Positions 2,843-5,781 of a DNA stretch of 6,415 nt are shown piece by piece. Every line of letters begins with the position of its first letter. Within the stretch, counting starts at the first letter, position 1. The translations under genes and the position numbers were made by a program. Below the pieces are notes generated by a model that was given only the letters and a program-made list of their open reading frames with translations, ran no database searches and was not told the origin of the DNA. The stretch comes from an uncultured Faecalibacterium sp. (GTDB lineage Bacteria; Bacillota; Clostridia; Oscillospirales; Ruminococcaceae), in contig CAMFSB010000097.1 of NCBI GenBank assembly GCA_945982465.1, positions 1 to 6,415 of the forward strand, written 5' to 3'.

Positions 2843-5082
2843 ATGATCCGCAGCATTGTCAAGCGCGACGGCCGCACCGTCCTCTACGAACAGGAAAAGA
2901 TCGCCCTGGCCATTGGCAAGGCGCTGCACGCCGCCGGCGAGGACAGTGCCGACGAGGCCGGCCGCATTGCCGACCGGGTGCGCCAGACCGCCGAGCGCGA
3001 GCTGGGCGGCGACACTCCCACCGTGGAGCAGCTGCAGGACATTGTGGAGCGTATGCTGATGGCCACCGGCCACGACGAGGCCGCCAAAAAATACATCCTG
3101 TACCGGGCCGACCGCACCCGCATCCGCGAGGCGCACACCAGCTTAATGAAATCCATCGACGAGATCGTCAACGCCGACGCCCGTCTGTGCGATTCCAAGC
3201 GCGACAACGCCAATGTGGACGGCAATACCAGCATGGGCTCCATGCTGCAGATGGGCACCAGCGCGGCCAAGGCCTACAACGCTGCCTGGCTGCTGACCCC
3301 CGAGCAGGCCAAAGCCCATCGGGATGGCGACATCCACATCCACGACTTTGACTTTTACGCCCTGACCGAGACCTGCTGTCAGATCGATCTGCTGCGGTTG
3401 TTCCACGGGGGCTTTTCCACCGGGCACGCCTACCTGCGCGAGCCGCAGAGCATCGGCGCGTATGCCTCGCTGGCCGTGGTGGCCATTCAGGCCAACCAGA
3501 ACGACCAGCACGGCGGGCAGGGCATCCCCAATTTTGATTACGCCATGGCCGAGGGCGTGGCCAAAAGCTACGCGTCGGTGTACCGCCGGTGCCTGGCGCA
3601 AGCGCGCCCCCCCCCCCCGACCCGCCCGCCGCGGACTCCGCCGCGGCGGTGGCCGGCGCGCTGGCGCAAAGCGCCGCGCTGGCCGCCAATGCCGCCCTGC
3701 GGCTGGTGGCCCGGGTGCGCCGCCGCACCGACCAGCAGGTGGAGACCGAGACCGATCAGGCCATGGAGGGGCTGATCCACGCGCTGAACGCCACCCAGAG
3801 CCGCGCCGGCGCGCAGACGCCGTTTTCCAGCATCAACTACGGCACCGACACCAGCCCCGAGGGGCGGCTGGTCATCCGCTGCACGCTCAAGGCGCTGGAC
3901 GCGGGCCTGGGCCAGGGCGAAACCGCCATTTTCCCCATTCACATCTTTAAAGTAAAAGAGGGCGTGAACTACGACCCCGGCGACCCCAGTTACGACCTGT
4001 TCCAGTATAGCTGCGCGGTCAGCGCGCGGCGGCTGTTCCCCAACTATGTATTTCTGGACGCGCCGTTCAACCTGCAGTATTATAAGCCCGGCCACCCCGA
4101 GACCGAGGTAGCCACCATGGGCTGCCGCACCCGCGTGATGGGCAATGTGTACGACCCCGACCGGGAGATCGCCTACAGCCGGGGCAACCTGAGCTTTACC
4201 ACCATCAACCTGCCGCGCATCGCGCTGGAGGCCTGCCGCCGCCCCGACGGCACGCTGGAGCCGGGCCGCGGCGATGAGCAAAAATTTTACGCCCGGCTGG
4301 ACGAGCTGCTGGACCTGTGCGCCCGCCAGCTGATGGACCGCTACCATTTGCAGGCGGCCAAGCATGTATACAACTACCCGTTTTTGATGGGGCAGGGCGT
4401 CTGGCTGGACAGCGACCGCCTTGGCCCGGACGACACGGTGGGCGAGGTGCTCCGGCACGGCAGCCTGTCCATCGGCTTTATCGGCCTGGCCGAAGCGCTC
4501 ACGGCCCTGTACGGCCGCCACCACGGCGAGGACGAAGCGGTCTGGCGCAAAGGCTATGCCATCATCCGCCACATGCGGGATTACACCGACCGGATGGCCC
4601 AGCGCACCGGCATGAACTACGGCGTGCTGGGCACCCCCGCCGAGGGGCTGAGCGGCCGGTTCACCCGCATGGACCAGGCGCGCTACGGCGCGGTGCCCGG
4701 CGTGACCGACCGGGAATACTACACCAACAGCTTCCACATCCCGGTGTGGTACCCGGTGCGCGCGTTTGAAAAGATCCGGCTGGAGGCGCCGTTCCATGAG
4801 CTGTGCAACGCCGGCCATATCACCTATGTGGAGCTGGACGGCGATACCGCCAAAAACGTCGAAGCCTTTGAAAGCGTGGTGCGCTGCATGCACGACGCGG
4901 GCGTGGGCTACGGCAGCGTGAACCACCCGGTTGACCGCGACCCGGTGTGCGGCTATGTGGGCGTGATCGGGGATGTGTGCCCCCGGTGCGGCCGCCGCAG
5001 CGGCGAGGCCATCCCGCCGGAAAAGCTGGCCGAACTGAAAAAGCGCTACCCGCAGATCAGCGTGTTCTGCGGCTGTAAATAA
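2843..5082 (+). CDS. nrdD: Anaerobic ribonucleoside-triphosphate reductase catalytic subunit (class III), frameshifted in this sequence and lacking the glycyl-radical segment
   Basis: It reduces ribonucleotides to deoxyribonucleotides without oxygen. SD AAAGGAG (2827-2833) fixes the start. Residues 1-90 are an ATP-cone (VKRDGRTVLYEQEKIALAI), the allosteric nucleotide site. The barrel follows: DGDIHIHDFDF (161-171), TCCQIDL (177-183, matching the conserved N-terminal active-site Cys), HGGQGIPNFDYAMAEG (223-238), SRAGAQTPFSSINYGTD (320-336), MGCRTRV (Cys428, probably the thiyl-radical Cys) and HPVDRDPVCGY...CPRCG, the zinc region (about 695-717). A C12 run at 3607-3618 breaks the frame: residues 1-255 are in one frame, which alone would stop at 3775, and the rest continues in the -1 frame. 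With C13 the protein is 746 residues. The end, VFCGCK, comes where other NrdDs continue into the RxxGY glycyl loop; here that loop is the next gene. Numbering uses the C13 reading. Confidence 0.93.
3607..3618 (+). repeat. Homopolymer C12 tract at the nrdD frameshift
   Basis: Twelve consecutive C lie at the exact point where the nrdD frame changes. Twelve C put the downstream part out of frame; 13 or 10 restore it. The tract falls in an Ala/Pro-rich stretch (residues about 253-290) that joins two well-conserved parts of the enzyme and looks like a tolerant surface insertion. A base-calling or assembly loss of one C in GC-rich DNA is the simplest reading. Slipped-strand variation, or slippage by polymerase or ribosome on the C run, would give the same picture. 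Confidence 0.85.
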
Positions 5083-5096
5083 AGGAGGAAACTGCA

Positions 5097-5246
5097 ATGT
5101 CTGTAAACGATCAGGGCGTGCCCGCCGTGGGCCAGAACGTAGGATTTGAGCGCATCCGCCGCATCACCGGGTATCTGGTGGGCACGATGGATCAATGGAA
5201 CGACGCCAAGCGCGCGGAAGAGCGCGACCGCGTCAAGCACCTGTAA
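5097..5246 (+). CDS. Free-standing glycyl-radical subunit of the class III ribonucleotide reductase
   Basis: This 49-residue gene was read directly from ATG 5097-5099 to TAA 5244-5246. Residues 17-49 (FERIRRITGYLVGTMDQWND, then a charged helix ending RDRVKHL) match the extreme C-terminus of ordinary NrdD, where the Gly of RxxGYL is converted to a stable glycyl radical by NrdG. Gly25 is that residue here. The preceding catalytic gene lacks this segment, so the small protein must supply the radical in trans, much as the YfiD/GrcA protein does for pyruvate formate-lyase. AAAGGAGGAA (5081-5090) lies 8 nt (from GGAGG) before the ATG, a full ribosome site arguing against a broken gene. It begins 14 nt after the nrdD stop and ends 4 nt before nrdG. 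The residues before 17 (MSVNDQGVPAVGQNVG) look like a flexible tail. The family match is from memory of NrdD C-termini. Confidence 0.88.
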   Translation: MSVNDQGVPAVGQNVGFERIRRITGYLVGTMDQWNDAKRAEERDRVKHL

Positions 5247-5250
5247 GGCC

Positions 5251-5781
5251 GTGCTGTATCTGGCGGGCCTTGCCGAAAACAGCATCGTGGATGGGCCGGG
5301 CCTGCGCTTTACCCTTTTTGCGCAGGGCTGCCCGCACCGCTGCCCCGGCTGCCAGAACCCCGAGACCTGGCCCTTTGCGGGCGGGCAGGCCGCCGCGCCC
5401 GAGCAGCTTGTGGAGCGGATCGCCCAGGACCCGCTGGTGCGCGGGGTGACTTTTTCGGGCGGGGAGCCGTTTGCCCAGGCAGGGGAGTTTGCCCGGCTGG
5501 GCAGGCTGCTGCGCGCCCGCGGGTACGAGGTGGCGTGCTACACCGGGTATACATTTGAGCAATTATTCCAAAATGGAAACGCTGACCAGCAGGCGCTGCT
5601 GCACAACCTGGACGTTTTGGTGGATGGCCCCTTTGTGCAGCGCGAACAAAGCCTGGAGCTGGCGTTCCGCGGCAGCCGCAACCAGCGCATTCTGGACGTG
5701 CCCGCCAGCCTGGCGGCGGGCAGAGCCGTGTGGGTGCGCGCGCGCCGCTGGGTGCTGGACGAGCAGCCGCCCGAGGCATAA
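5251..5781 (+). CDS. nrdG: Anaerobic ribonucleotide reductase activating protein (radical SAM)
   Basis: The 176-residue enzyme uses a [4Fe-4S] cluster and S-adenosylmethionine to form the glycyl radical on NrdD, here on the preceding small protein. ENSIVDGPGLRFTLFAQGCP (residues 9-28) leads into the cluster motif CPHRCPGC (CxxxCxxC, about 27-34). VTFSGGEPF is the SAM-binding GGE motif, CYTGYTFEQL follows, and VDGPFVQREQSLELAFRGSR with NQRILDV is the typical NrdG C-terminal signature. The start is GTG at 5251: it aligns with the usual NrdG N-terminus and lies 4 nt after the stop of the small gene. An upstream ATG at 5146 would add 35 unrelated residues and overlap that gene. TAAGG lies too close to GTG to be a good ribosome site, so translation is probably coupled to the glycyl-radical gene. 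Confidence 0.95.
   Translation: MLYLAGLAENSIVDGPGLRFTLFAQGCPHRCPGCQNPETWPFAGGQAAAPEQLVERIAQDPLVRGVTFSGGEPFAQAGEFARLGRLLRARGYEVACYTGYTFEQLFQNGNADQQALLHNLDVLVDGPFVQREQSLELAFRGSRNQRILDVPASLAAGRAVWVRARRWVLDEQPPEA

Follow-up and report, generated by a model that had tools for sequence, protein, structure and literature searches.

Introduction

Class III ribonucleotide reductases, as they are described, carry the glycine that stores the radical as part of the enzyme itself, and oxygen cleaves a glycyl-radical chain at this glycine. In the available parts of the structural report on NrdD of Prevotella copri (PDB 8P23 and kin), the C-terminal domain consists of a structural zinc site followed by a buried loop with Gly711 near Cys416, and is described as mobile (PMC11226230). 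Spare parts have been validated in only two cases, both serving pyruvate formate-lyase (PFL), while their existence for other enzymes is raised as speculation in the accessible sections of the respective article (PMC8683613). A separate radical subunit of NrdD is not described in the accessible parts of PMC9531940, PMC4390871 and PMC3019208, and we found no description of one in the open-access literature that was searched. Here, we analysed a 6415-base stretch of DNA from an uncultured Faecalibacterium sp. (contig CAMFSB010000097.1; the whole stretch is called the window), in which the loop with the predicted radical glycine is encoded by a separate open reading frame (ORF) of 49 residues located between nrdD and nrdG. 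Judged from the sequences, this locus most probably codes for a two-chain class III ribonucleotide reductase, whose 49-residue radical subunit likely docks in trans (probability about 0.86).

Results

The large frame of nrdD ends with the motif FCGCK and a TAA codon at 5080–5082 on the plus strand, and the frame of the small ORF is closed upstream by another TAA at 5076–5078. The small ORF (5097–5246, plus strand) starts with its own ATG at 5097, is preceded by AGGAGG at 5083–5088 as the likely ribosome-binding site, and contains the motif RITGYL with the predicted radical glycine, Gly25 (codon 5169–5171), which is equivalent to Gly711, the radical glycine in RITGYLVG of P. copri NrdD. The gene for the radical-SAM activase NrdG follows immediately on the same strand (5251–5781; TIGR02491, E 3.5e-39, above the cut-off), starting with a GTG at 5251, 4 nt past the stop codon of the small ORF. 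A preliminary description of the window had claimed this arrangement of closed frames, separate start and adjacent activase gene, and all of it was borne out by the coordinates.

Both proteins match successive parts of the same Pfam model: the large chain ends at position 530 of NRDD, and the small ORF supplies only positions 533–562 (E 7e-9; it also matches positions 572–617 of NF011292). The C-terminal RxxGYL motif that a canonical class III enzyme carries on the same chain is found as RITGYL in the separate ORF, and the window enzyme is a non-canonical, two-chain variant of this class. At E 0.001, the small ORF matched no Pfam family other than NRDD, the Gly_radical family included. It resembles GrcA/YfiD in being a small stand-alone protein with a glycyl-radical loop, but shows no homology to the C-terminus of PFL and was therefore not classed as a member of that family; by analogy, it is best read as the NrdD counterpart of the PFL spare part YfiD/GrcA. 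The small ORF is no chance frame: of 7999 scored candidates in the corresponding short size range, at least 7990 were homologues, some of which may be contig-edge fragments.

To place the locus among its relatives, we surveyed 197 genomes of the family and found the glycyl-radical tail in 134 of them; among the matches listed, the frames carrying it mostly measured about 49–150 or about 540–860 residues, with just two between (235 and 401). Wider searches gave matches in 61 of 127 genomes of the order, 44 of 148 of the class and 80 of 199 of the phylum, and the matches listed beyond the order were mostly frames of fused size. We then gathered 140 regions, nearly all around matches, together with 80 named genome loci (the best 80 of 576) and 80 viral loci (the best 80 of 433), and sorted them according to the frames that carry the catalytic core and the tail. 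Because the loci were chosen by tail similarity, they give no frequencies across bacteria. The named loci comprised 70 split operons, 2 fused genes and 8 loci without an adjacent nrdD, one of which (L239) is a contig-edge fragment of a fused gene. In total, 135 operons were measurable, the window included, of which 130 were distinct and five duplicated; L066, L272, L281 and L304 have no adjacent tail and were excluded from the counts, and in L187 and L195 R-x-x-G-Y occurs only as an upstream GxGYG motif.

The preliminary description had taken the split to be genuine, and the 130 distinct operons confirm this: fusion is not universal among the relatives, and the gap recurs in many assemblies. 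Their nrdD genes end with TAA (87), TGA (26) or TAG (17), and the small ORF lies in frame with nrdD in 48 cases, offset by one base in 46 and by two in 36. It starts with ATG in 127 operons and with GTG in 3, and is preceded by a Shine-Dalgarno motif of at least 5 bases in 97 and of at least 4 bases in 128 operons, compared to 3.0% and 14.1% of 2724 ATGs inside these nrdD genes; the operon values are inflated, since the start was picked by the best motif and the control had no such choice. The gap between nrdD and the small ORF has a median of 40 nt and ranges from −11 to 411 nt among the 135 operons, with 305 nt in L101, the nearest relative of the window. In 114 of 133 operons, an nrdG frame is located no more than 400 nt downstream. 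The three frames, the mixed stop codons and the separate starts with Shine-Dalgarno motifs cannot result from a lost base, read-through or programmed frameshift. The expectation that related large chains would end in C-G-C next to an RxxGYL ORF held for the adjacent ORFs and only partly for the terminal motif: many relatives do without it, and two cysteines within the last six residues (e.g., CGC) occur in 46 of 128 unique split large chains. In the window, the terminal CGC is encoded at 5068–5076; such pairs recall the redox cysteines at the C-termini of class I and II reductases, and the CGC of the window could be a redox pair.

Some loci showed further layouts. L178 (G436:C10), L159/L214 (G308:C7), L147 and L149 contain an extra radical ORF in the operon or its neighbourhood, either as a 101-residue radical ORF beside a fused nrdD or as two radical ORFs beside one nrdD. 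One genome with a split nrdD operon (G284) also contains an NrdD-like protein adjoining nrdG (L347; G284:C3) which covers only NRDD positions 6–502 and is devoid of the zinc region and the radical domain.

DNA synthesis needs ribonucleotide reduction, and genomes without any alternative enzyme are therefore informative on the function of the split form. We examined 36 near-complete (97–100%) genomes with split operons, using two Pfam models to detect ribonucleotide reductases. No other NrdD above the Pfam cut-off was present in 30 of the 36, and 15 had no class I/II match, while 21 had one (six of them weak and partial). The split enzyme was thus the sole detected ribonucleotide reductase in 10 of the 36 genomes, namely G012, G075, G165, G004, G112, G161, G104, G185, G227 and G299; G185 is assembled as a single contig, and the locus of G161 is the same as in Massiliimalia timonensis (L126/L184). 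Because these cells still have to reduce ribonucleotides, the split enzymes are very likely functional, as far as gene content tells. The ratio of nonsynonymous to synonymous differences (pN/pS) in the tail core was 0.17 for operon, 0.22 for unlinked and 0.17 for viral copies (unsaturated pairs), indicating purifying selection. Apart from the window, all measured large chains consist of one long frame, except for L222, L230, L243 and L247, which are cut by contig ends.

In the window itself, the ATP-cone (PF03477) and the NRDD core (PF13597) both scored above the cut-off but are spread over two frames on the plus strand. The first frame (2843–3775) contains the ATP-cone (E 5e-20) and the start of the core (NRDD positions 1–128; NF005497, PRK07111), and the second (3589–5082) the remaining core with the zinc-site cysteines (NRDD positions 115–530 of 562). 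They overlap at a run of 12 C (3607–3618) that interrupts the gene, a break which the preliminary description had overlooked. Two relatives, L101 and L032, keep a single open frame across this position; L101 (80% identity over 462 columns) has one nrdD frame of 778 residues. The break is either a base-calling error or real decay. The large chain contains the motif TMGCRTR, whose putative catalytic cysteine (codon 4123–4125) would receive the radical from the small subunit; MGCRTR was invariant across 47 aligned related sequences, with the window excluded from the alignment.

The likely zinc-site cysteines of DPVCGYVGVIGDVCPRCG (4948–4989; codons 4948–4950, 4978–4980 and 4987–4989) lie in a region whose counterpart in P. 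copri NrdD contains a structural zinc site, and are followed by a C-terminal extension, EKLAELKKRYPQISVFCGCK (4990–5079), where fused NrdDs have just a short linker. With the first CxxC cysteine of the zinc site as reference, FERIRR lies 12–15 residues away in 38 of 39 fused chains, and the end of the large chain 23–69 residues (median 34) away in 128 unique split chains, often with the pattern EKLxELRxxYP. The small proteins carry a median of 16 extra residues ahead of FERIRR. We infer that these extensions on both sides of the break may serve as docking elements.

In a tree calculated with FastTree from the catalytic chains (127 split, 38 fused) without the tail columns, at least 16 switches between the split and fused states are required, at least 8 of which are forced by well-supported branches. 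On this tree, the two forms have interconverted repeatedly, with the fused form both lost and regained. The window pairs with L101 (support 99) within a split clade. The 39th fused chain, L035 (G057:C417), ends in two tandem glycyl-radical tails and falls into a group of 32 rows (support 94) whose remaining 31 rows are split; this nested position suggests that L035 is a re-fused NrdD.

Among the bacterial loci, 41 copies of the tail had no nrdD in the fetched stretch. These include edge pieces (L180 and L239, both from fused genes; L157 at a contig start; and L108 of G093, near a contig end and matching NRDD 497–562 across a stop) as well as L164 and L165 with nrdG next door. An extra N-terminal domain, counted with a small profile built from eight rows, was present in 26 of the 41, compared to 3 of 139 tails from operons and 6 of 74 from viruses; a shared-word search retrieved as its relatives three proteins of 89–100% identity. 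We searched 15 genomes with an unlinked copy as a whole, G093 being excluded, and found that 11 also encode a complete fused enzyme of this type; three of the other four contain a tail-less NrdD and one (G180) only a distant NrdD. The three with tail-less enzymes (G030, G158 and G065) encode an nrdD without the glycine loop (L344, L345 and L346), which ends with FERIKRIR, or contains ERIPRIK or EKIPRIK and no TGYL, and have their radical ORF on a different contig; a canonical NrdD is present as well in G158 and G065. These genomes appear to be on the way from a spare part to an obligate subunit.

Near 4 of 29 unlinked copies (L072, L073, L175 and L177), we found genes for a Crp-type regulator and/or a flavodiiron-type protein (ODP and flavodoxin), which hints at oxygen control; two of the four loci come from one genus, and four such neighbours were confirmed by Pfam. 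The other scanned neighbours at the 29 loci were unrelated or without match, and because this small theme is confined to 4 of 29 loci, we do not claim an oxygen-stress island around the unlinked copies. In L167 and L168 (both from G536), the radical ORFs differ in their N-terminal part and have a GYLSKV loop; they seem to represent a second type of free-standing radical protein for NrdD. Two matches among 29 PLSDB records, from Clostridioides difficile and Monoglobus, were considered as lone tails and rejected, both being fused nrdD genes.

Of the viral loci, 75 of 80 had no nrdD in the fetched stretch. Whole records were searched for 39 of the 80, giving 36 with the tail only and 3 with a tail-less NrdD plus a tail, although viral records may be fragments. 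At three loci, neighbours of lone viral tails belonged to the families of endolysin, NAD-dependent DNA ligase and DNA methyltransferase, and 6 of 10 scanned neighbour proteins had no match or an unknown family. In PHROGs, the lone tail has no family of its own and matches only families of whole NrdDs. In Eggerthella phage EL753P1 (L341; recorded host E. lenta DA753), nrdD is tail-less and contains an apparent intein, as judged by eye; the separate tail ORF is annotated as hypothetical, and its frame is interrupted inside RxxGYL in that record. The layouts of the off-contig and viral lone tails are most easily explained by action in trans. Our best guess is that the unlinked and phage copies repair or re-arm NrdD; the phage copies may instead inhibit the host enzyme. 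Near one lone tail, a phage methyltransferase-like protein (L301:31–2130) matches, with its residues 2–152, positions 569–717 of phrog_26446, the anaerobic ribonucleoside reductase large subunit.

The window comprises the entire contig (G000:C97) of a 1.93-Mb assembly in 327 contigs. Its plus-strand gene order is nrdD, the 49-residue ORF, nrdG and a Fur/PerR-type gene truncated by the contig end. On the minus strand, positions 346–1845 encode a 499-residue protein without Pfam or NCBIfam match at E 0.001, which looks like a multi-span membrane protein by eye. Contig 141 of the same assembly (G000:C141, L102) encodes a second, canonical NrdD with the motif RRTCGYIG.

Discussion

The preliminary description had proposed that the large chain depends on a small partner docking in trans, a proposal that gains support from the 130 operons in three frames, the 10 of 36 genomes with no other detected reductase and the off-contig and viral tails. 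The sequences themselves show that the two chains divide the work, have separate signals for translation and are conserved as a pair in many genera. Because the split falls between the zinc site and the loop, the small subunit would be expected to insert its loop at the site of the fused loop. In the mechanism we propose, NrdG would abstract a hydrogen from Gly25, the Gly25 loop would reach into the large-chain barrel next to the cysteine of codon 4123–4125, and the radical would pass from Gly25 to that cysteine in each turnover. The extensions, about 20 residues past the zinc site and about 16 before FERIRR, may help the chains hold together. Since oxygen cleavage falls at the radical glycine, damage would be confined to the small, cheap subunit, which could be swapped, and the unlinked copies on chromosomes and those of phages would likewise serve as spare parts. 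We consider it an even bet that all these proteins form one diffusible family of about 50–100 residues acting as obligate subunit, re-arming spare part or phage-borne support of the deoxynucleotide supply of the host during infection, with roles that interconvert; an interconversion of spare part and subunit is suggested because the genomes with a loop-less nrdD keep an unlinked copy.

That the gene is really fused, and the gap due to faulty sequencing or assembly or to a single frameshift, might be suspected from the frame break at the 12-C run elsewhere in the window nrdD and from the short, drafty contig, but is extremely improbable given the range of gaps, frames and stop codons in 130 distinct operons, the 305-nt gap in the nearest relative L101 and the clear case on the single contig of G185. 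It is likewise exceedingly unlikely that a single protein arises by stop-codon read-through or programmed frameshifting: a single intervening stop was seen in 9 of 10 inspected cases among the 48 in-frame operons, but the small ORF is out of frame in 82 of 130, the stop codons are mixed, an ATG and a Shine-Dalgarno motif precede the small ORF, and lone copies occur far from nrdD.

The remaining alternatives concern the role of the protein. If the split nrdD were decaying and the cell relied on another reductase, the frame break in the window, the NrdD on contig 141 of its genome and the class I/II matches in 21 of 36 split genomes would be accounted for; we regard this as very unlikely, as no other reductase was detected in 10 near-complete genomes, pN/pS is about 0.17, and large chains outside the window form one long frame except for the four contig-end cuts. 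A YfiD-like part that merely repairs oxygen-cleaved NrdD, instead of serving as the regular radical subunit, would fit the complete fused NrdD in 11 of 15 genomes with unlinked copies and the Crp-type or flavodiiron-type neighbours of 4 of 29 lone copies. For the operons it is unlikely: since their large chains lack the radical glycine loop entirely, the regular radical source there must be the small protein, and 30 of 36 split genomes contain no other NrdD above the cut-off.

Several points weigh against a two-chain enzyme with a subunit acting in trans. The nrdD frame is broken in the window record itself, and an NrdD of this kind occurs in just 2 of 31 genomes examined of the genus, because of which the contig may be misbinned or acquired; the copy may also be decaying. 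An nrdG frame is absent within 400 nt in 19 of 133 operons, and the sequence conservation of the tail is common to fused NrdDs and thus no proof of action in trans on its own. AlphaFold2 was run on L256 read through its stop codon (TAG as Q), and in the two models, made without a fused-chain control, the tail was not placed (predicted local distance difference test, pLDDT, about 33–57), whereas the core mostly reached 80–98. One of these models used 36 small-subunit rows, and the tail was possibly covered by few full-length rows; a structural look-up of the L256 model covered little beyond the core and the beginning of the zinc region.

If a two-chain enzyme is indeed present, an oxygen-sensitive enzyme part can be made, replaced, traded and horizontally supplied alone. 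This makes it testable whether spare-part repair extends beyond PFL, as speculated in the accessible part of PMC8683613, and how the activase meets a glycine that is untethered from the catalytic barrel. A radical subunit that can be separately labelled, mutated or titrated also offers an experimental handle, and genes of this kind can be left as hypothetical by annotation, as in one phage record.

Compared to known systems, fragmented phage nrdD genes, such as those with introns in T-even phages or that of Aeromonas phage phiAS4, are likewise in pieces; the accessible text puts their fragmentation down to introns, inteins and homing genes or leaves it unexplained, and describes neither a separate radical subunit nor a lone radical ORF (PMC3653736). 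The split class II reductase NrdJa/NrdJb is also divided over two polypeptides, the first of which has an additional C-terminal piece, but belongs to a different class, as far as the available sections of PMC9669993 describe it. In P. copri NrdD, the zinc site and the Gly711 loop are on one chain in the parts of the report available, whereas here the break falls between them and both sides are extended (PMC11226230). T4-like phages contain a small glycyl-radical ORF, vs.6; the accessible part of PMC1524935 does not present it as an NrdD subunit but relates it verbally to nrdD and nucleotide metabolism on the grounds that vs.6 and nrdD share a match to the Gly_radical family. It may be taken as an early hint of a phage radical part. 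We take vs.6 to be Y06I, which was later shown to serve PFL. Like YfiD/GrcA and Y06I of T4, the protein described here is a small stand-alone glycyl-radical-loop protein with bacterial and phage versions; according to the available text, those repair a complete PFL after cleavage, whereas the present one would be a part of NrdD and, in the operons, would replace a piece that is missing from the start (PMC8683613).
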